Source of the DNA: Psychroserpens burtonensis DSM 12212
Lineage (GTDB): Bacteria > Bacteroidota > Bacteroidia > Flavobacteriales > Flavobacteriaceae
NCBI RefSeq assembly: GCF_000425305.1
Contig: NZ_KE384347.1
Location: forward strand, 64,457-128,456
Direction of reading: 5' to 3'
DNA length: 64,000 nucleotides
Shown: one piece after another, positions 10,693 through 22,444 of the stretch
How positions within the stretch are numbered: the stretch's first letter is position 1
How the letters are laid out: each line of letters starts with the position of its first letter
The notes under the pieces: model-generated
The model's database searches: none
What the model saw: the letters and a program-made list of their open reading frames with translations, nothing else
What the model was told of the DNA's origin: nothing
Position numbers and translations under genes: made by a program

Positions 10693-12234
10693 ATGGACGA
10701 TAAAATAAAAGACCTCACCGGAAAATTAAGATTAGCCCATTTAGGAGGTGGCCAAATTAGAATTGATAAGCAGCATGAAAAAAAGAAATTGACCGCTAGA
10801 CAGCGCGTCATGTATCTTTTAGATGACCAATCCTTTGAAGAAATTGGTGCCTTAGTAATGCACAGGACAAAAGATTTTGGCATGGAAAAGCAAAAATTCT
10901 ATGGGGATGGTGTGGTTACGGGTTATGGAACTATTAACGGAAGACTAATCTATATTTTTGCTCAAGATTTCACTGTTTTTGGTGGTTCATTGTCTGAAAC
11001 GCACGCCGAAAAAATTTGCAAGGTTATGGATTTAGCAGTTAAAGTGGGTGCTCCAATAATAGGGCTTAATGATTCTGGAGGTGCTCGCATACAGGAAGGT
11101 GTGCGTTCTCTTGGAGGTTACGCTGATATTTTTTATCGCAATGTACAGGCCTCTGGTGTGATACCTCAATTATCTGCAATCATGGGACCTTGTGCTGGTG
11201 GTGCCGTGTACTCTCCTGCAATGACAGATTTCACATTAATGGTGGAAGACACTAGCTATATGTTTGTCACTGGACCAAATGTTGTAAAAACAGTAACCAA
11301 TGAAACGGTGACTTCAGAAGAACTTGGAGGCGCAAGCACACATTCTACAAAATCTGGGGTGGCTCATAAAACATCTCCAAATGACGTAGAATGTTTGGAA
11401 GATCTAAAATCGCTATTGAGCTATCTGCCACAAAATAATACTGAAACTCCTGCGCTACTCCCATTTGAACTGCAAGATGAAGTCAGAGAAAATTTATCTA
11501 CAATTATACCAGATAACGCCAACAAACCTTATGATATGCATGAGGTAATCACTGGTATTATTGATGAAGATTCATTTTATGAAATTCATAAAAATCATGC
11601 TGAGAATATACTTGTAGGTTTTGCACGATTAGGAGGACGAAGTATTGGAATTATTGCCAATCAACCCCTGTTTTTAGCTGGTGTTTTAGATGTGAATAGC
11701 TCTAAAAAGGCAGCACGTTTTGTTCGTTTTTGTGACTGTTTTAATATTCCGTTGTTGACCTTAGAAGATGTGCCAGGATTTTTACCTGGAACCGACCAAG
11801 AGTGGAATGGAATTATTGTTCATGGTGCAAAATTACTGTATGCCTTTAGTGAAGCTACAGTGCCAAGAATCACAGTTATTACTCGAAAAGCCTATGGAGG
11901 CGCTTACGATGTCATGAACTCAAAACATATTGGTAGTGATATAAATTTTGCTTGGCCAAGTGCAGAAATTGCTGTTATGGGCGCAAAAGGTGCTGCAGAG
12001 ATCATTTTTAAAAAGGAAATCAATGCTTCTGAAGATAAAGAAGCGAAGTGGAAAGAAAAAGAAGCAGAATATGCTGAACTTTTCGCCAACCCTTATAGCG
12101 CTGCTGAACGTGGTTTTATTGACGAAGTCATACTCCCTAAGGACACACGGCGAAAGTTGATTAAGGCATTTGCTATGCTACAAAATAAAGACGTGGACAG
12201 ACCTAAACGAAAGCATGGAAATATTCCTTTATAA
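10693..12234 (+). CDS. Acyl-CoA (probably propionyl-CoA) carboxylase beta subunit
   Basis: A 513-residue carboxyltransferase that moves the carboxyl group from biotin to an acyl-CoA. It contains both crotonase-fold halves, with oxyanion motifs GGARIQEGV (129-137) and GPCAGGAVY (165-173) in the first and AYGGAYDVM in the second. Length and motifs match PccB-type single-chain carboxyltransferases. It follows the biotin carboxylase after a 234-nt gap without a gene. The last 31 codons and the stop are found again, degenerate, at 13155-13250. The acyl-CoA specificity is inferred from family resemblance. Confidence 0.9.
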
Positions 12235-13154: not shown

Positions 13155-13250
13155 AAGAACACAAGAGGAAAGTTGATTGAGGCATTTGCTATGTTGCAAG
13201 ATAAAGAAGTGGACAGACATAAGTGTGAGTATGGGAATATCCCTTTATAA
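13155..13250 (+). pseudogene. Degenerate duplicate of the carboxyltransferase 3' end
   Basis: These 96 bases align without gaps to 12139-12234, the last 31 codons and stop of the acyl-CoA carboxylase beta gene; by hand count 79 of 96 bases agree. The reading frame and TAA stop are kept and the encoded ends both read GNIPL. There is no start codon or upstream homology, and the frame is entered just after an unrelated TGA at 13153-13155. It is a fragment left by duplication or by recombination with a homologous gene. Confidence 0.8.
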
Positions 13251-13414: not shown

Positions 13415-14335
13415 ATGACAAACAAATTTGTATTTACGCTATTGTTTTTAATTTTTTATAGTGTCCTTTTTAGTCAAAATGGACTTCCTATTAAAATGAA
13501 TGATTCTAAAATTAAACCACTTAGAACCCTAGTTGATTCGCAGTTACAAGCTAGTTTAGAAAGAGAGATAAACAAGAATCCGCATTGGAAATCATTAATC
13601 GCCCAAAAAAAGATGTCTATTGGCGTCGTAGATTTAAGCAACCCTAATCAAGTAAAATTTGCCAACATCAACGGTAATCACATGATGTATGCAGCTAGTT
13701 TACCTAAGATTGCAATTCTTTTAGCTGCCATGGATGCCATTGAAAAAGGAGAACTTAAAGAGACAAATGATGTAAAAAATGACATGCGTCTCATGATTAG
13801 TAAATCCAATAATGCTGCCTCAACCAGAATGATAGATAGAGTTGGTTATGATAAAATTGAAGCGGTAATGACAGATCCTAAGTATATGTTTTATGATGAA
13901 GATCATGGAGGCGGACTTTGGGTTGGAAAACGTTATGGAAGTGGTGGAGACACAAATAGAGAACCACTTAAAAACCTGAGTCATGCAGCAACGGTAAATC
14001 AAGTATGCCGCTATTATTATTTGTTAGCTAATGGCAAATTAGTAAACAGAAAACGATCAACACAAATGCTTAAAATAATGGGTGATCCTGAATTACATCA
14101 CAAATTTGTAAATACGATTGAACAAATTGCACCTGAGGCAGAATTGTATAGAAAATCTGGATCATGGAAAAGTTACCATTCAGATTCCATACTCGTTTGG
14201 GGAAAAGAGCCTAATAGACGCTATATTTTAGTTGCGCTTATTGAAGATTCTCAAGGCGAAAATATCATTCGCAGCCTTGTTAAACCTATAGAACGCATAC
14301 TTCAAACAGATATAATATCAAATAGCATACTTTAA
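13415..14335 (+). CDS. Secreted class A beta-lactamase-like serine hydrolase (copy 1)
   Basis: A 306-residue protein with a signal peptide (about residues 1-21, ending LFSQ). All three active-site motifs of the penicillin-recognising serine hydrolase fold are present: SLPK with Ser95 and Lys98, SNN at 131-133 and KSG at 247-249. Length and motif spacing fit class A beta-lactamase-like proteins (Beta-lactamase2). Whether it cleaves beta-lactams is unknown; the Omega-loop glutamate of true class A enzymes could not be placed with confidence. An in-frame TTG at 13412 is less likely than the ATG at 13415. It is closely related to the next gene, so a tandem duplication is likely. It should act in the periplasm. 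Confidence 0.88.
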   Translation: MTNKFVFTLLFLIFYSVLFSQNGLPIKMNDSKIKPLRTLVDSQLQASLEREINKNPHWKSLIAQKKMSIGVVDLSNPNQVKFANINGNHMMYAASLPKIAILLAAMDAIEKGELKETNDVKNDMRLMISKSNNAASTRMIDRVGYDKIEAVMTDPKYMFYDEDHGGGLWVGKRYGSGGDTNREPLKNLSHAATVNQVCRYYYLLANGKLVNRKRSTQMLKIMGDPELHHKFVNTIEQIAPEAELYRKSGSWKSYHSDSILVWGKEPNRRYILVALIEDSQGENIIRSLVKPIERILQTDIISNSIL

Positions 14336-14440
14336 TAAATAGAATTAAACAACCAGACAAAACAGATCAAAATATTTTTTTCAACATCCACTTTGTGGAA
14401 TATATTTTGTTGATTTTGTCTCTTATAGAGCAACGCTTAG

Positions 14441-15367
14441 ATGATACCAATAAAAAATTATATTTTATTATTTGCATTCGTATATACGACATGGACAAGT
14501 TTTGCTCAAGACGAGCTTCCTCTTGAACAAGTGAACGAAATTGATAAGATTGCTGAAATAGAAAATATCGAACTTCGCAATCTACTATACACTGAAATAA
14601 ATTCAAACCCTACATGGAAAGGCCTAATAGCTAAAAACCTAATGTCTATTGGCATTGTAGATTTAAGCGTTGAAGGCGATTATAAGTACGCTGGTATTAA
14701 TGATGACCATATGATGTATGCTGCTAGTTTACCAAAAATAGCAATCTTGCTCGCTGCCATGGATGCGATTGACAAAGGTGAATTAGAATACACTAAAGAA
14801 ATCAAAAAAGATTTACGTTTAATGATTAGTAAATCAAATAACCAAGCATCTACTAGAATGATTGATCGTTTGGGTTATGAGAAAATTGAAGCTGTTCTAA
14901 GATCACCTCAAAATATGTTTTATGATGAGGAAGAAGGTGGCGGACTCTGGGTAGGCAAAAGATATGCAGCTGGGGGGAAACGAAACCCGGAACCAATGAA
15001 GGGCTTAAGTCACGCAGCAACAGCGAAACAAGTTTGTAGGTTTTACTACCAATTAGCTATGGGCAATTTAGTAAGTACCGAGAGTTCAGAAGAAATGTTA
15101 GCTATTCTAAAAGATCCTGCTCTACATCATAAATTCGTAAACACTTTGGATAAGATTGCACCTAATGCCACTGTTTATAGAAAATCAGGGTCTTGGAAGA
15201 ACTGGCATGCAGATTCTGCTTTAGTTTGGGGACCTAAACGCAAATATATTATCGTCGCTTTGATAGACAACGCTTTTGGAGAACAAATTATACGAGATTT
15301 AGTAATGCCAGTAGAAAAAATATTAAAAAAATCACGTTCTTTATCGAAAGGAAAAACGAAAAAATAA
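14441..15367 (+). CDS. Secreted class A beta-lactamase-like serine hydrolase (copy 2)
   Basis: A 308-residue paralogue of the preceding gene. It has a signal peptide ending TSFAQ near residue 23, SLPK with Ser96 and Lys99, SNN at 132-134 and KSG at 248-250. Long stretches around the active site, such as MMYAASLPKIAILLAAMDAI, are almost unchanged between the copies, while the N-terminal 60 residues differ more. It ends 3 nt before the TTG start of the transporter gene, so translation of the two is probably coupled. Its role is unknown; peptidoglycan or an antibiotic is a plausible target for this fold. Confidence 0.88.
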   Translation: MIPIKNYILLFAFVYTTWTSFAQDELPLEQVNEIDKIAEIENIELRNLLYTEINSNPTWKGLIAKNLMSIGIVDLSVEGDYKYAGINDDHMMYAASLPKIAILLAAMDAIDKGELEYTKEIKKDLRLMISKSNNQASTRMIDRLGYEKIEAVLRSPQNMFYDEEEGGGLWVGKRYAAGGKRNPEPMKGLSHAATAKQVCRFYYQLAMGNLVSTESSEEMLAILKDPALHHKFVNTLDKIAPNATVYRKSGSWKNWHADSALVWGPKRKYIIVALIDNAFGEQIIRDLVMPVEKILKKSRSLSKGKTKK

Positions 15368-15370
15368 GGC

Positions 15371-18208
15371 TTGCTTAGAACTTTAATTAATAAAACATTT
15401 GGCATAAGAGATGGTGAAATATACATCTCTTTTTTAATGCAGTTATACATCTTCATTGTTATAACTGTTTTACTAATTGTTAAGCCAACAGTAAATGCAT
15501 TATTTTTATCTCGACTTGGTGCCGATAATTTACCCTATGGTTATCTTTTAGTAGCTGTAGTAGCAGTTATTACCTCCTATTTTTATAATCGAGCTATTCA
15601 AAAATTTTCGTTACTAAAAGTGACTTCAATATCTTTGATAACCTTTAGTTTGATCTTTTTAGGGCTCGCCATAATTTTAGAATATTCGCTTTTGGAAGAT
15701 TGGCTGCTTTATGTTTACTATTTAGCAGTGTCATTGTTTGCTGTAATGGCTACATCTCAATTTTGGGTGTTGGCAAATATGGTATTTAATGCTAGGGAAG
15801 CAAAACGATTATTTGGTTTTATTGGTGCTGGAGCAATCGCAGGAGGTGTTTTTGGTGGCTATTTAACAAGTCTTGTAGTTACTAATTTTGGAAATAAGGA
15901 AGTTATTGTTTTGGCAGCTATTCTAATTCTCAGCTGTATCCCAATCATTCACAAGATTTGGAAATTAAGAGTTCATAAGCTCAATACGTATATTAGAGCA
16001 CAACGAAAACATACCGAAGATGGCTTAGAGCAAAGTTCTTTCAAAGTGATTTTACAATCAAAGCACCTTACTTATCTTGCGTTAATTACAGGCATAAGTG
16101 TTATTGTTGCAAAACTAGTAGATTTTCAGTTTAGTGATTTTGCAAATAAAGCCTTTTCAGATACTGAAGAATTAGCCTCTTTTTTCGGATTTTGGTTCTC
16201 TACTTTTAATGTGATCGCACTGACGATGCAATTGTTTCTAACTAACCGCATATTAAGCAAACTAGGCGTTGCTTCCACCCTATTGATCCTACCGTTTGTT
16301 ATAGCACTCGGTAGTTTGTTGTTTTTAACATTTCCGGAGTTATGGGTATTAATCATCATAAAAGGAGTGGATGGTAGCTTTAAACAATCTATTCATAAGG
16401 CTGCTATTGAATTGTCAATTATGCCAATACCGTTACAAATAAAAAATCAAGCAAAATCTTATATTGATGTCGCCGTAGACAGCATATCTACTGGTATCGC
16501 TGGTTTTATACTTATATTTTTAATTAGAAAATTAGACTTAAACACCTCTTATATTACAGTAATCATAATTCTATTTGTATTTATCTGGATTATTCTCATT
16601 TATAAACTGCGTGAGGCTTATTTTGATTCATTTAGAGTAAATATTCAGCGCACACTTAATAGTAATACTTCGGAAACATCTTCTAAAGCAAAATTTCAAA
16701 CGACTTTAAAAGCTGCTCGCAAGATCCTAAACGAAGGGCAAGAAGAGCAAATATTAAACTTATTAAACTACTTAAAGTCCAATAAACTTAATGCCCTTAA
16801 AACTAGTATTATTGGCTTACTTAATCATCCCTCTAATAAAGTAAAAGCTGCTGCTATCAAACAATTTTATATTTATGATAAAGGAACTGGATTAAATCGT
16901 GTCGAACCTTTGGTATATGCAGAAGATGATGAATTAGTGTTTACTGCTCTAGAGTATATTTTAAATCATTCTTCTATAAAAGAACATCCGTTTTTTAATA
17001 CCTATTTAAATCATGACAGCGATTACATCTCCAATGCGGCACTATTATGCTTAGCAAAAGAAGCATCTGCCAATCAAAAACTCGCATTACAATTTAATTT
17101 ATACAATAGAATTGAAACTAGAGTTACATCTTTATCCTTACCAGAAAATCAAGAGAGAGAACCCTCAATTGCATCACTACTAATCACTATTGCCGAGTCT
17201 GGTATGGCTAAGTACTTTCCATTTATTGCGACTCATCTAGAAAATGATAATACGTATATAAAAAAGCATGCTATTAAAGCTGCAGGAATAGCTTCTAGCG
17301 ATCAATTTATTGATAAACTATTTGAGTTTGTTTCAGAAAAAATATATCGAAAAACTGCTATAAAAGCTCTCAAAAATTACGGTATTAAGATCATTGATTA
17401 TATTGTTGAATTAGAAAAAACGGAAACAATCAACAACAACATAGCTTCCCAGATGCCAAAGATCATTAGTGCATTTAAAACTCAAAAAGCAGTCAATGTT
17501 CTTATGAAATTACTTAATAGTAAGGACATCATCATACGTTTGGCTGCCATTAAAGCTTTAAACAAATTAAAAAATAATGATAATGGCTTGTATTTTAATA
17601 AGCGTTTACTTAGAAATAGAATCATAAAAGAGAGTGCTTATTACAAGCGTACTCTAGATGCTATTGCTTCTTTACAACAGGTTATCCATTTAGAATTACC
17701 TGACGAAAATTCACCTCATCAATCACCTGAATTATTAATAGCGAGACAGCGAATCATTGAAGTTCTTGAGGGGCAAACTGAAGATAGCTTAAAATGTCTA
17801 TTCAATTTATTAAGTTTAGTCTATGAAGAATCAGATATAGAAATCACGTACTCAGCTCTACTAAGTAATGTAAAAGAGGCTCGAATTAATGCACTAGAAT
17901 TTTTAGACAACCTGCTTCGAAGTCAGTTAAAACAATCTGTCTTACCTCTTATTGAGCATTATGTATTATCAAATAACGACAGTGATACTTCTACCTTACA
18001 ATTGAGAATAATGAGTGAAAAGGAGTGTTTACAAATGCTCATAAAAAACAGAGGAAAGAAAATAAAACTAGAGGCTTTACAGCTTATTAAATTACTTGGA
18101 GATGACAGCTATAAACCAATTCTAAACAAACTCAAAAAGCATCAAAACAAAAATGTAAAATTCTTTGCACTTGATGCTTTAGCCATATTGAAAAAGAATA
18201 AACAATAA
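15371..18208 (+). CDS. NTT-like nucleotide transporter fused to HEAT repeats
   Basis: A 945-residue protein. Residues 1 to about 430 form some 11-12 hydrophobic helices with the layout of the Npt1/Npt2 ATP/ADP translocase superfamily, itself related to MFS; a conserved-looking NAREAKRLFGFIGAGAIAGG segment lies after helix 4. From about 440 to the end it is a string of HEAT-type helical pairs, predicted cytoplasmic. Fusion of NTT-like domains to HEAT repeats is a recognised bacterial class whose substrates are not settled. The start is TTG, 3 nt after the preceding stop; the first ATG would delete the conserved-looking IRDGEIY opening. The stop lies 3 nt from the stop of the convergent gene at 18212. 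Confidence 0.8.
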   Translation: MLRTLINKTFGIRDGEIYISFLMQLYIFIVITVLLIVKPTVNALFLSRLGADNLPYGYLLVAVVAVITSYFYNRAIQKFSLLKVTSISLITFSLIFLGLAIILEYSLLEDWLLYVYYLAVSLFAVMATSQFWVLANMVFNAREAKRLFGFIGAGAIAGGVFGGYLTSLVVTNFGNKEVIVLAAILILSCIPIIHKIWKLRVHKLNTYIRAQRKHTEDGLEQSSFKVILQSKHLTYLALITGISVIVAKLVDFQFSDFANKAFSDTEELASFFGFWFSTFNVIALTMQLFLTNRILSKLGVASTLLILPFVIALGSLLFLTFPELWVLIIIKGVDGSFKQSIHKAAIELSIMPIPLQIKNQAKSYIDVAVDSISTGIAGFILIFLIRKLDLNTSYITVIIILFVFIWIILIYKLREAYFDSFRVNIQRTLNSNTSETSSKAKFQTTLKAARKILNEGQEEQILNLLNYLKSNKLNALKTSIIGLLNHPSNKVKAAAIKQFYIYDKGTGLNRVEPLVYAEDDELVFTALEYILNHSSIKEHPFFNTYLNHDSDYISNAALLCLAKEASANQKLALQFNLYNRIETRVTSLSLPENQEREPSIASLLITIAESGMAKYFPFIATHLENDNTYIKKHAIKAAGIASSDQFIDKLFEFVSEKIYRKTAIKALKNYGIKIIDYIVELEKTETINNNIASQMPKIISAFKTQKAVNVLMKLLNSKDIIIRLAAIKALNKLKNNDNGLYFNKRLLRNRIIKESAYYKRTLDAIASLQQVIHLELPDENSPHQSPELLIARQRIIEVLEGQTEDSLKCLFNLLSLVYEESDIEITYSALLSNVKEARINALEFLDNLLRSQLKQSVLPLIEHYVLSNNDSDTSTLQLRIMSEKECLQMLIKNRGKKIKLEALQLIKLLGDDSYKPILNKLKKHQNKNVKFFALDALAILKKNKQ

Positions 18209-18211
18209 TTA

Positions 18212-19528
18212 TTAATTATCTGTTTCGTCTTTATCACTTTTATACTCTACTTCTTTTATTGCTTCCTTCATTGCATTATTATCTTTATTTATAATATCAT
18301 CAATCATACTGGCCAAGTACATATGGTTTCCTGCAGAATTCTTATTGAGAACATTAGTCATTAAACACGTAATATATTTCACTCCATTAGGGTGCTCTAC
18401 AATAATTACAGAATTCATAAAGTTAAACACATTTCCAGCATAATCTTTACAGTCGGGGTTTTTTACGCGATCACATTTGTAATAACTACCAGATTTATAA
18501 TATACTGCTGCACTATCTAATCGACTAGATTTTGCATATCTAATCCTACGATCTGTAGAATACATAATACGCTTTATTTCTAAACTAGATTTCTCATCAA
18601 TAACCTTCCCTTGCTCTAATTGAACTAAAAATTTCATCAATCCTTTTGGCGTACTAGTACTGCCTCCTTTTCTACCAACATACTTATCAGCAGTCCTTGT
18701 AAACATACCTCCTAAGCGCCAATCATCCTCCGTAATCCCTAGTTCTCGTAAAGGTTCATTGACTACAGCATGTGCTAAATTAGTTAATGAATCTCTGGGT
18801 GTGTCTTTAAAGTATTGTTCTGCTTTCTCTGCATTTAAATTGACATAATCAGGACCAAAAGCTGCCATTAATATAGCTTCACGATACATAATACTCGCTG
18901 CACCATTATTACTAACTGAGACCATGTGATCTAACCATTCATATAATGAAAACTCATCTGTTGCAATCACTTGACGTTTTATAAGCTTATTTTTTTCAAT
19001 ATCATAAATTGGAATAGTGTGATGATCGCCTAATCCCCAATACCTCGAGGTTACTTTGATATCTCTCATGTACATAGCACGTTGTTCCCAAGAGTCTGGA
19101 CACACTTTATCCATTTGATCCATAACTGCTAAGAGTACTGCCAGTTTACCAACACTTCCTGGTTGATAACCTACATTTTCTCTAAATGCTGCATAACGTA
19201 ATTTATCAGGATTTGACATATCCATGATACTTCCAGAATATCCCGCACCTGGAAACAGTTTCCCTATATCCTTAGCAAAATCTTTATCCTCCACTAAAAG
19301 AGCATCAATGCTATCTTTTCTAGATACTAAGTTCAATTTGATGTCTTCTAACTTTTTATAAGCTCCAAAAGGAATCTTCTTATAAGGCACAGAATCTTCT
19401 TGAAACTTTTGTAATTGATATAAACGCTTTATACCAGTAGTTTTATAGCCATCAATTGGATAAAACGACGTAAATCCAAAAGACAATAATGCGCCTATGA
19501 GGATTACGAAATAAAATATTTTTTTCAT
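18212..19528 (-). CDS. Secreted penicillin-recognising serine hydrolase (third copy)
   Basis: A 438-residue exported protein with an N-terminal signal or anchor helix (residues 1-22). The active-site motifs are SVGK with Ser125 and Lys128, SNN starting at Ser206 and KSG at 345-347. It is about 130 residues longer than the two plus-strand hydrolases and only distantly similar, with a larger insert between the first and second motifs. It begins 3 nt after the stop of the dikinase-like gene and must be in the same operon. The pairing of a serine hydrolase with each of the unusual neighbours suggests a common pathway. Confidence 0.82.
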   Translation of the reverse strand: MKKIFYFVILIGALLSFGFTSFYPIDGYKTTGIKRLYQLQKFQEDSVPYKKIPFGAYKKLEDIKLNLVSRKDSIDALLVEDKDFAKDIGKLFPGAGYSGSIMDMSNPDKLRYAAFRENVGYQPGSVGKLAVLLAVMDQMDKVCPDSWEQRAMYMRDIKVTSRYWGLGDHHTIPIYDIEKNKLIKRQVIATDEFSLYEWLDHMVSVSNNGAASIMYREAILMAAFGPDYVNLNAEKAEQYFKDTPRDSLTNLAHAVVNEPLRELGITEDDWRLGGMFTRTADKYVGRKGGSTSTPKGLMKFLVQLEQGKVIDEKSSLEIKRIMYSTDRRIRYAKSSRLDSAAVYYKSGSYYKCDRVKNPDCKDYAGNVFNFMNSVIIVEHPNGVKYITCLMTNVLNKNSAGNHMYLASMIDDIINKDNNAMKEAIKEVEYKSDKDETDN

Positions 19529-19531
19529 GCC

Positions 19532-22444
19532 TTATAATTTTGTTTTAAGCATCACTAGCTCTCCCTCATCATTCTGAAAAGAAATAGAAGCCAAGTAGTC
19601 TGAACTTTTTGCTTGTTTATTTTCTACGAATGGTCTAATCTGAAACAACCATAATTTATTATTTTGAAAACCAAACTCTACATCATAGGCTTGTTTCTCA
19701 GAATCAGAATGTGAGGTCATAGATTTTCTAATAGCGCTGGCTAATTCCCTAATATCTGATAGGTTACTCTCATTTAAAATGGGTGTCTCAAACGGTGTTG
19801 TATATCTTTTTGTTCCACCAGATAGGGGTAATCTTATATAATCTGGTTGTCTCGCTGGAGATAATAACACATTTCCTTTAGTGGTAATTAATCTTGTTTC
19901 TGCAGATTGACCATCAACTGCTCCTCCTGCTCCACGACTAAATGCTACTGTTAAATCATCATCATTTCCAGAGTTAATACCTTTGGTAATCATAACTCCA
20001 GAGTAATCTACATCAACGCTAGGAATAATCAATATTGAAGGAAATACATTCTCTGGATTAGATAAAAATTTCTGTCTCCATTTAAAGCTACGTTCTGAAT
20101 ATGCAGAAGCCCAAACACGTTTTATACCTTCAATAATTTTATCTTCTTCTTTGATGTTAAAAAGTGTTAGGTTTAATCCTGCCCCAGTGAATTCTTTCAA
20201 ATCCTCCATATTAGTATCACTCCTTAAAAACACAGGAACCTCGCCCATTGAAGCACCAAAAACGGATTTAAAATTAGACTTCATATCTGCGACAAATACA
20301 ACATCTAGATTGATATCTAACATTGCTGTATATAATTTTGACAAAGCTTCCAATTGAAATGCTTCTATTTTGTCTTCGGAAACGTTATCACTTTTCATTT
20401 TGTCTGCGTCATCAAAAGTGGTATTTAAATACTCCCAGTAGGAGGTGTTTACACCAGGCATTTGTTGATTCATATGTGATCTAAATATTCCGAAGGGAAT
20501 AATCAAACCTTCAACAACTTGCTCGGGAAACATCTTTTTTAATCCCCCTAAGTTAGCAGCTTTTGGTCCACATAGTTTCCCCGAATCACTGGCATCAACA
20601 TCTCGCATGTTAACAATCGTGTTTATATCTAACTTAATTTCTGCAGTTGGTACTTCTACAACATTCTTGCTTCGCTCTTTTTTACTGAATAACTCTTTTT
20701 CCGAAGAAGACATATCATCCTCTAATTTTAAAATTACGTTCCCTTTATTAGAAACCGCATAAAATACTTTTTTCCCACTAAATTGTTTTAATTCTTTCAA
20801 ATTATCATAAGACAATGCAGCATTTGGGATTCCTAAATTTCTCGCCAATAATTGTACATGAGACACTAAATTACCTTCAGAAACGGTCATAATACCAGCT
20901 ATAGGTTTTAAGTCTGCAGGTGGTTTTTCAAATATATAAATATTTTTAGTATCGACTTCAACAGTATTAGGGTTTCCATCAACTACAATAAAAGTTCCAT
21001 AAGCATATCCAGGATTAAGCCCTCTAATAGACGTTTGATTATCGATTGCCATCACCTTATTTTCTATATTGGATAATTTAGCTACAAAAGCACCAAAATC
21101 ACTCACGGTATTTCCAAGACTAAGTGCAATACTACTGCGAACACGATCATCTATAAACCCATAAGCCAATGGCTCAAAAGCAGTGTATTTCTCAACTATC
21201 TCTTGATAATTAGCTTTGACCATAGACGCGCTCCATTCTACAACTCCTCTAGAGGTTACCAACAATTCATTTAAACCAGAAATACTAATTTTAGTATTTA
21301 CCAATTGATTAGGAATCACATTCTCAATAGCATTGTATTCCCAATTCTCAATTAATCCGGTTCCCATAGAGGCACAAATCAACGTATTTATTTTATGCAA
21401 ATTTTCAGCTAAAGTTGGTGTTTCCCAATTTTGGGATTCTATCAATAATTTTTGCTCTAAGCGATTTGATAAATCGAGAATTAATAGTCGTGTTTTAGAG
21501 CTCTTTATTTTATTAATGTCTAGCCTAATTTGATATAATACATTAGTAATATCCACAACAATTTGCTCGGCGGATGGTTCCTTTTTAGATGATTCTATAA
21601 GTATACTAAAACTTTTATTAAGATCGGTTGTCAATGACATTCTCTTGATGTCACTTTCTAAAGTCATAAGATTTAGAGGCGCATAAAACGTTTCCATTGT
21701 TAAAACTAACGCTTCAAATTCTTTATGTTTCACTTCTGAAATCTTAGAGCTTTGGTTAGCCATAAACGTTTTAACCAATTCTATATCAGAATTTTGTGGC
21801 TGTCCGTGAATTTTAATTCTAGCATCCATAAACGACGGAATCGCTTCAGATAATATTTTAGACTGACTTCTCATCAATTGTGCTAAATTATCATCACCAT
21901 TATGGGGAATGTCTCTTAACACCTGACGAATCAAATAGTAATGAGAATCCAAAAAGGCATCATCCTTTAAAAAGATTTCGAAAAACTCCTTTCCCCAAGC
22001 CTCCTCATCTTCGCTTTGAATAGCTCCTCTATAATATTGCGCTTTACGCAGTATCCAACCATCATCAATACTTCCTAAATACGCATTGATTTGATATTGT
22101 TTTAGTCGGCTATAATCATCATTTATGTCTAAAAAGTCCAGTGGTTTGTTATCTACTAATATTTCTCCCAAAAAAAGATGATTCGTTATACGAAGTTTCA
22201 AAGTAGATTCTTTAAAATTAGCATGCTGGAGACCTCCTATATTATCTGGACAAGGATCTTTTGGCTCACGCTGCGTGCCATCATCACAAAACCATTTGAT
22301 ACGCAGGTATGGTCCACGAGGATCAGTTTTATAAGTATCAACAAGTGCTTTAATTTGAACAGACGATTGTTGTTGTTGTTGTGCTCCAATTTCCGAAATA
22401 AAGAAAATCAAAGCACTACTTACCAATAGGCAAAATTTATTCAT
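19532..22444 (-). CDS. Secreted PEP-synthase/glucan-dikinase-like protein
   Basis: A 970-residue protein with a signal peptide (about 1-22, cleavage before a run of five Gln). The frame extends further upstream, but the ATG at 22444 places the signal peptide at the N-terminus. The first 500 residues are helical and of no family known to me, opening with a Cys-containing WFCDDG/DPCPDN region. A phosphohistidine swivel-type domain follows (LVSHVQLLARNLGIP, His529), then at the C-terminus an ATP-grasp domain of PPDK_N type: CGPKAANLGG near 625, RSDTNMEDL near 744, RVWASAYSER, and QIRPF near 937. The swivel domain precedes the ATP-grasp domain, as in plant glucan water dikinase and unlike PEP synthase or PPDK. 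No PEP-binding barrel is seen. Substrate unknown. Confidence 0.78.
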   Translation of the reverse strand: MNKFCLLVSSALIFFISEIGAQQQQQSSVQIKALVDTYKTDPRGPYLRIKWFCDDGTQREPKDPCPDNIGGLQHANFKESTLKLRITNHLFLGEILVDNKPLDFLDINDDYSRLKQYQINAYLGSIDDGWILRKAQYYRGAIQSEDEEAWGKEFFEIFLKDDAFLDSHYYLIRQVLRDIPHNGDDNLAQLMRSQSKILSEAIPSFMDARIKIHGQPQNSDIELVKTFMANQSSKISEVKHKEFEALVLTMETFYAPLNLMTLESDIKRMSLTTDLNKSFSILIESSKKEPSAEQIVVDITNVLYQIRLDINKIKSSKTRLLILDLSNRLEQKLLIESQNWETPTLAENLHKINTLICASMGTGLIENWEYNAIENVIPNQLVNTKISISGLNELLVTSRGVVEWSASMVKANYQEIVEKYTAFEPLAYGFIDDRVRSSIALSLGNTVSDFGAFVAKLSNIENKVMAIDNQTSIRGLNPGYAYGTFIVVDGNPNTVEVDTKNIYIFEKPPADLKPIAGIMTVSEGNLVSHVQLLARNLGIPNAALSYDNLKELKQFSGKKVFYAVSNKGNVILKLEDDMSSSEKELFSKKERSKNVVEVPTAEIKLDINTIVNMRDVDASDSGKLCGPKAANLGGLKKMFPEQVVEGLIIPFGIFRSHMNQQMPGVNTSYWEYLNTTFDDADKMKSDNVSEDKIEAFQLEALSKLYTAMLDINLDVVFVADMKSNFKSVFGASMGEVPVFLRSDTNMEDLKEFTGAGLNLTLFNIKEEDKIIEGIKRVWASAYSERSFKWRQKFLSNPENVFPSILIIPSVDVDYSGVMITKGINSGNDDDLTVAFSRGAGGAVDGQSAETRLITTKGNVLLSPARQPDYIRLPLSGGTKRYTTPFETPILNESNLSDIRELASAIRKSMTSHSDSEKQAYDVEFGFQNNKLWLFQIRPFVENKQAKSSDYLASISFQNDEGELVMLKTKL

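Follow-up and report, generated by a model that had tools for sequence, protein, structure and literature searches.

Could an ATP-driven reaction take place in the bacterial periplasm, a compartment usually treated as ATP-free? This question is raised by a locus of Psychroserpens burtonensis DSM 12212, located at positions 13415 to 22444 of a 64,000-nucleotide stretch of contig NZ_KE384347.1 (the whole stretch analysed, here called the window). The locus encodes an exported dikinase-like protein, a membrane protein that joins an NTT-type nucleotide-carrier domain to HEAT repeats (NTT-HEAT) and three exported SxxK serine enzymes (bla1, bla2 and bla3), of which bla1 and bla2 are paralogues of one type, blaA. 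Export of the dikinase was judged by a hydrophobicity heuristic for signal-peptide-like starts. It is well supported that the dikinase, NTT-HEAT, bla3 and blaA genes form one unit that encodes export-type proteins. The presence of this set on an all-or-none basis in some flavobacteria suggests an ATP-driven reaction outside the cytoplasm.

Co-inheritance of the four genes

We searched 299 genomes of the family (the family sample) for the dikinase, NTT-HEAT, bla3 and blaA, using the same set for each, and found all four in the same 58 genomes. The presence cut-off for the dikinase was at least 900 bits, reached by 58 of the 82 matching genomes; the other 24 scored at most 65 bits and hold other PPDK_N proteins. 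For NTT-HEAT it was at least 500 bits (58 of 63 matching genomes, the other five at most 84 bits). These cut-offs were chosen after the score gaps were visible. At the cut-offs used, 240 of the remaining 241 genomes hold none of the four genes. The one exception, G146, holds a blaA relative on a contig that stops inside the NTT gene following blaA, and we therefore attribute it to an assembly limit. A Fisher test of the resulting 58/0/0/241 table gives 2e-63, a value that treats the genomes as independent, ignores their kinship and is not leaned on here.

The arrangement of the genes is conserved as well. In the family sample, the dikinase and bla3 genes lie on one strand less than 1 kb apart in 56 of 58 genomes, bla3 faces NTT in convergent orientation at under 1 kb in 50, and NTT and blaA share a strand within 1 kb in 55. 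All four genes are present even in G108 and G143, though by contig coordinates NTT is 2.0 Mb from bla3 in the former and blaA is 3.3 Mb from NTT in the latter. The dikinase occurs at full length and once per genome in all 58. Within four genera (g1, g18, g19 and g33), the set was found in one sampled species and not in another, and G267, from the same genus as the window, has a syntenic accC-pccB to mfs stretch that lacks the cassette.

Furthermore, we extended the searches to 142 genomes of the class and 257 genomes of the phylum. Three class genomes contain the dikinase and the same three contain NTT-HEAT; the two besides that of the window belong to other families, with the dikinase and NTT-HEAT genes convergent and less than 3 kb apart. 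One in-frame TAG interrupts the NTT match of G544, a member of this sample. In the phylum sample the dikinase was found in 11 genomes, nine of which have a cassette-type NTT-HEAT (at least 700 bits), including G357, where this gene is divided between two contigs. The NTT-HEAT profile matched 25 of the 257 genomes, of which nine scored at least 700 bits, five scored 460 to 523 bits (G487, G484, G376, G441 and G537, four of them without the dikinase) and 11 reached at most 99 bits, namely G472 and ten genomes without the dikinase.

A scan of named genomes gave 352 dikinase relatives; the best 80 among them were taken forward as our named loci. Clustering of the open frames at these loci returned the four cassette families in 80, 77, 68 and 66 of them, the next family being present in 20, while a direct search found bla3 at 80/80 and NTT at 69/80. 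Almost all named loci come from Flavobacteriaceae genera, including the marine genera Polaribacter, Winogradskyella, Maribacter, Leeuwenhoekiella and Kordia. By dikinase identity, the nearest named relatives are those of Arcticiflavibacter luteus (86%), an uncultured Psychroserpens (83%) and Psychroserpens algicola (76%). A chance neighbourhood was rejected on the basis of the co-occurrence in the family and class samples and the recurrence of the four families in the 80 named loci.

In the window all five genes are intact and present, in a 3.98-Mb genome assembled in 68 contigs. The bla3 and dikinase pair faces the NTT-HEAT gene on the opposite strand, and gaps of 3 nt separate bla2 from the transporter gene, the convergent stop codons of NTT-HEAT and bla3, and bla3 from the dikinase. 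Gene order, strands and spacings are thus as a first-pass annotation of this DNA had described them, and the neighbourhood on whose conservation its proposal depended is kept far beyond the genus, in 58/299 family genomes and most of the 80 named loci. The three hydrolases that it had assigned to the penicillin fold all match the Pfam family Beta-lactamase2 above the cut-off. The translational coupling it had proposed between hydrolase and transporter fits the 3-nt gap of the window and does not extend to other genomes: in the 55 family genomes with both matches within 1 kb the median gap between the blaA and NTT matches is 37 nt.

The exported dikinase and its known relatives

The dikinase gene (19532..22444, minus strand) encodes 970 residues in three parts. 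A mostly helical N-terminal domain (residues 25-470; 21035..22372) is followed by a swivel, or phospho-histidine, domain (residues 475-575; 20720..21022; codon of His529 at 20858-20860) and by an ATP-grasp domain (residues 624-948; 19601..20575). The last matches Pfam PPDK_N over the same residues with 92 bits (cut-off 27) and is matched by Foldseek as well. The swivel assignment is weaker, with a sub-threshold match to PEP-utilizers over residues 512-540 (13.1 bits, cut-off 23.1) and a weak alignment to phosphoenolpyruvate (PEP) synthase.

Our alignments consist of the window and named loci picked by eye for diversity (54 of the 80 in A2, 43 in A3, 38 in A4 and 28 in A5); L109, which has a stop codon within its match, was left out of A2. 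H529, K628, R741, D921, E923, Q935 and R937 are invariant in 55 aligned dikinases, and all of them except K628 align to a PEP synthase whose structure has been solved, though the alignment is weak around the histidine. An AlphaFold model of the dikinase had a mean pLDDT (predicted local distance difference test) of 80 and a pTM (predicted template modelling score) of 0.78, with the swivel stretch 509-530 ill-defined. When the whole model was compared with known structures by Foldseek, all 19 matches with E at or below 0.001 belonged to the dikinase superfamily. Among the top eight, ranks 1 and 4-8 were rifampin phosphotransferase or its ATP domain, rank 2 was PEP synthase and rank 3 was HpeI; the target-normalised template modelling score was 0.81 for the rifampin phosphotransferase ATP domain 5hv6_B and 0.70 for HpeI (9goj).

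A signal-peptide-like start was recognised in 21/21 aligned dikinases. In addition, Cys53 and Cys65 are invariant in 55/55, which would fit an oxidising compartment. The first-pass annotation had named loss of the ATP-grasp residues and a cytoplasmic location as the outcomes that would speak against an envelope dikinase; the ATP-grasp and swivel residues are kept in the 55 sequences, and the heuristic recognises an export-type start in every member to which it was applied.

The N-terminal domain is conserved in 29 sequences down to 32% identity. R43 G44 P45, W51, C53 and C65 are kept, and so are E145 D146 E147, R192, H213, E366, D432 D433 R436 and others, a pattern that resembles that of a substrate-binding domain. 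This domain had no relative among the PDB sequences (best E 0.36), and no Pfam family was matched by more than two of the 29 members. No carbohydrate-binding family stood among the matches listed, 25 of 41 weak Pfam matches to the 29 N-domains. A PHROGs search with the dikinase returned nothing.

How does this protein relate to known dikinases? We rejected an assignment as PEP synthase, pyruvate phosphate dikinase (PPDK) or rifampin phosphotransferase, as the swivel precedes the ATP-grasp domain. In domain order the protein resembles the plant enzymes alpha-glucan water dikinase (GWD) and phosphoglucan water dikinase (PWD), in which a phospho-histidine domain also lies ahead of a C-terminal nucleotide domain. 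We take the ATP domain of GWD to be C-terminal and its Ser-His and RSD-N-EDL motifs to resemble those of the cassette dikinase. In potato GWD, His992 is essential, as stated in an excerpt of PMC12892837. Unlike GWD and PWD, the cassette dikinase is exported and bacterial, and its gene is linked to those of a transporter and acyl-enzymes; no starch-binding family was found in it, and sequence searches of Pfam and the PDB gave no match for its N-terminal domain.

The ATP-grasp fold is shared with rifampin phosphotransferase and the two-component dikinase HpeHI, and so is a catalytic histidine in a swivel domain, as described in an excerpt of PMC12167813. In contrast to these enzymes, the cassette dikinase is exported, has the reversed domain order and contains no recognised rifampin-binding domain; the NCBIfam matches covered only its ATP domain and scored far under cut-off. 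With PEP synthase and PPDK it shares PPDK_N and the same aligned residues, but its swivel lies before the ATP domain, it is exported, and no PEP-utilizers_C barrel was found in it.

A proposed periplasmic phosphotransfer system and its alternatives

The NTT-HEAT gene (15371..18208, plus strand, TTG start) encodes a TLC/NTT domain in approximately residues 1-420, followed by HEAT repeats. Pfam recognises both in the same protein: the TLC ATP/ADP transporter family (PF03219) with 53 bits over residues 106-321 (cut-off 21) and HEAT_2 with 63 bits over residues 698-737 (cut-off 27.7). The NCBIfam model TIGR00769 stayed under its cut-off (45.2 versus 387.2 bits). A profile of the carrier domain (A6) aligned with the solved chloroplast ADP/ATP carrier 9j3j (E 1.7e-16) and with a second ADP/ATP carrier, 9j3n (E 4.7e-15). 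K38, R142, R146, K248, D251, K338, E347, K358, K362, D366 and D370 are invariant in 30 carrier domains. An NTT domain with C-terminal HEAT repeats is the composition of the NTT-HEAT fusions, which, according to an excerpt of Major, Embley and Williams 2017 (PMC5381601), form a single widespread clade whose function is unknown. The four cassette families include no cyclic-nucleotide-binding gene, unlike those fusions, and an obligate link to exported enzymes, as found in the cassette, is not described for them in that excerpt.

The three serine enzymes are encoded at 13415..14335 (bla1, plus strand), 14441..15367 (bla2, plus strand; the blaA copy that is the transporter's conserved partner) and 18212..19528 (bla3, minus strand, 438 residues; the partner of the dikinase). 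Their Beta-lactamase2 scores are 71, 82 and 43 bits, respectively (cut-off 22), and they carry the SxxK, SxN and K(T/S)G motifs of the class A beta-lactamase/DD-peptidase fold. In blaA, S96-K99 (SLPK), S132-x-N134, K248-S-G and a GGLWVGKRY loop are present in all 30 aligned sequences. In bla3, for which the AlphaFold model reached a pLDDT of 81.6, S125-K128 (SVGK), S206-N-N, K345-S-G and the pair Cys352/Cys360 are invariant in 39 sequences. Unlike class A beta-lactamases, the three enzymes score far under the 200-bit cut-off of bla_class_A (15.7, 23.5 and 20.2 bits), and in the 30 blaA sequences none of the glutamates between SxN and KSG is fully invariant. The nearly invariant E150 follows directly after SxN, presumably too near to it to be Glu166. 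Since an invariant equivalent of Glu166 is absent from blaA, a beta-lactamase reading is not supported, and transfer of an acyl or peptide group, or slow hydrolysis, appears likelier.

Taken together, we propose that the four genes encode one envelope phosphotransfer system, in which a periplasmic dikinase fed by NTT-HEAT and two acyl-enzymes act on one envelope substrate; we put the probability of this reading at roughly 40%. The NTT-HEAT protein would move a nucleotide over the inner membrane, most likely ATP outwards against AMP, ADP or phosphate. The exported dikinase would take the beta-phosphate onto His529 of its swivel, like PEP synthase, rifampin phosphotransferase and glucan water dikinase, and would pass it to a substrate held by the helical N-terminal domain. 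On the same envelope molecule, either a glycan or one derived from peptidoglycan, the enzymes bla3 and blaA would cleave acyl or peptide bonds or re-esterify them. The analysis shows the gene set, its all-or-none co-inheritance, the export-type N-termini, the intact catalytic motifs and the fold of the ATP domain; we infer the identity of the nucleotide, the direction of its transport, the phosphate acceptor and the order of the steps. Nucleotide export is proposed because an envelope dikinase needs a phosphate donor and the only membrane protein that accompanies it constantly in the family sample is related to nucleotide carriers. That Bacteroidota possess a dedicated, ATP-fed system of this kind, in which NTT-HEAT exports a nucleotide for the secreted dikinase to phosphorylate an envelope polymer or conjugate, together with two transpeptidase-like acyl-enzymes, is a possibility that we hold tentatively.

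The constant inheritance of an exported dikinase with a nucleotide-carrier-like protein in the family sample makes periplasmic nucleotide delivery testable. If the reading is true, covalent ATP-driven chemistry would take place in a compartment normally thought to lack ATP; the uncharacterised NTT-HEAT fusions would gain a function, and the cassette would give them a concrete setting. A search of open-licence papers for such a locus or its chemistry found nothing relevant, which gives weak evidence that none has been described. Novelty, in our view, lies in the system as a whole, the single proteins all being members of known superfamilies.

Two groups of observations weigh against the phosphotransfer system. 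The first concerns the carrier residues. An excerpt of PMC4256464 names four residues, K155, E245, E385 and K527, that matter in the Arabidopsis carrier and show strong conservation in bacteria. We placed these columns by counting in the alignment, assuming that 9j3j is the Arabidopsis carrier and an offset by which positions 245, 385 and 527 are E, E and K, and found three of the four replaced: E245 by A/S/G, K527 by T/G and, where the alignment is weak, K155 by Y/F. The column of E385 holds an invariant Asp. The same excerpt reports that the microsporidian carriers ThNTT1 and ThNTT3, altered at three of the four key sites, still carry ATP and GTP, and the residue test, which the first-pass annotation had proposed for the transporter, is therefore neutral on nucleotide transport.

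These replacements are accounted for equally well by a route of salvage and import, in which the hydrolases release a compound in the periplasm for the dikinase to phosphorylate, and NTT-HEAT imports the phosphorylated anion against phosphate or a nucleotide, carrying the product and not the fuel. A carrier domain that has invariant basic residues but lacks the canonical ATP/ADP set would suit such a role, and the HpeHI dikinase, as an excerpt of PMC12167813 describes, opens a catabolic route by phosphorylating a small molecule. However, a periplasmic dikinase would be left with no named ATP source unless the same carrier exchanged ATP, and we regard import as unlikely.

The second group concerns loci without the transporter. 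In G472 and G487, which hold the most distant loci, the dikinase, bla3 and blaA genes are adjacent with no NTT-HEAT there; the only NTT of G472 has approximately 420-440 residues and lies elsewhere in the genome, and G487 has an NTT-HEAT of another type elsewhere. The three enzymes therefore form the more widespread core, which the transporter accompanies almost constantly; the transporter may have been recruited to the cassette later. Among the 80 named loci an NTT match was absent from 11, five of which are short of downstream sequence. L070, L073, L076, L078, L105 and L114 have neither NTT nor blaA in the 10 kb past the dikinase, and L065 has NTT at the locus but not blaA. Moreover, the 9-13 kb covered at each of nine further PPDK_N loci in the family contained no NTT or bla match; several of the PPDK_N proteins there are exported as judged by eye.

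The trio of G472 and G487 would be expected if NTT-HEAT were a signalling or scaffold protein, or a carrier of something other than nucleotides, and the enzymes acted on peptidoglycan or lipid with no export of ATP, drawing on another donor or on trace nucleotide. A 1455-residue PPDK_N protein with the same catalytic motifs and a type IX secretion tail, predicted to exit the cell, points the same way. Against this stands the retention of NTT-HEAT in 58/58 family and 3/3 class genomes that have the dikinase, and we consider this explanation unlikely.

Pyruvate phosphate dikinase is reversible, and the cassette enzyme could in principle run backwards: NTT-HEAT would then import ATP that the dikinase had made outside the cytoplasm out of AMP, phosphate and a phosphorylated donor. 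NTT carriers act as importers in parasites, according to an excerpt of PMC4256464. However, no PEP/pyruvate barrel family was found by Pfam in the proteins of the window, and a genome of 3.98 Mb is not the reduced genome of a parasite, which makes such reverse use very improbable. Least credible is a defence or antibiotic-inactivation island of rifampin-phosphotransferase-like and beta-lactamase-like enzymes, to which most of the top eight Foldseek matches, the Beta-lactamase2 matches, the patchy presence and the exchange of modules would be suited, but against which stand the reversed domain order, an N-terminal domain with no Pfam family, the lack of an invariant Glu166-like residue in blaA, the single full-length dikinase in each of the 58 genomes and a plasmid search that gave only partial PPDK_N matches, with none of seven matching records covering most of the dikinase.

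Cassette types and related proteins at other loci

We compared the cassette sequences at 66 loci and in the window. Two types, A and B, defined by identity cut-offs of our own choosing, account for 63/67 sets. Three of the compared sets are mixed: in L036 the dikinase and bla3 are of type A and NTT and blaA of type B, while in L091 and L108 the dikinase, bla3 and NTT are of type B and blaA is of type A. Parts of one type therefore work, or are at least kept, with parts of the other, and the mixed cassettes point to module exchange between relatives.

The window itself has a type-A set with bla1, a type-B blaA, adjoining it. A second blaA match is rare and was found only in L080 and L101 among the 66 named loci with blaA. 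bla1 is 87% identical to the blaA of the Arcticiflavibacter locus L036, which itself lies beside a type-B transporter. Upstream of bla1, between marC and bla1, positions 13155-13250 hold a 96-nt copy of the 3′ end of pccB, 82% identical to 12139-12234. Exchange at this site probably left the scrap behind as a recombination scar.

Dikinase-like proteins were also seen in other settings. The 1455-residue exported PPDK_N protein mentioned above (L121:2907-7274) combines its type IX secretion tail with lamin-tail and CARDB domains; the swivel Ser-His, RSSTNNED and DIE..QARP motifs are kept, and the dikinase-like domain is apparently sent outside the cell. Stand-alone proteins of approximately 630 residues (L116:6001-7917 and L118:5784-7670), exported as judged by eye, have a swivel and an ATP-grasp domain in the same order and with the same motifs, and no NTT or bla match was found in the 13 kb covered at each locus.

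A different clade of NTT-HEAT proteins, of approximately 910 residues, is encoded at L171:8940-15830, and similarly in L170 and L173, upstream of an Omp85-type outer-membrane protein. Downstream of this NTT-HEAT gene lie genes for a lipoprotein-like protein that matched no Pfam family and for a calcineurin-like phosphoesterase whose start resembles that of a lipoprotein, the Pfam search covering the L171 genes only. NTT-HEAT proteins may thus serve more than one envelope system.

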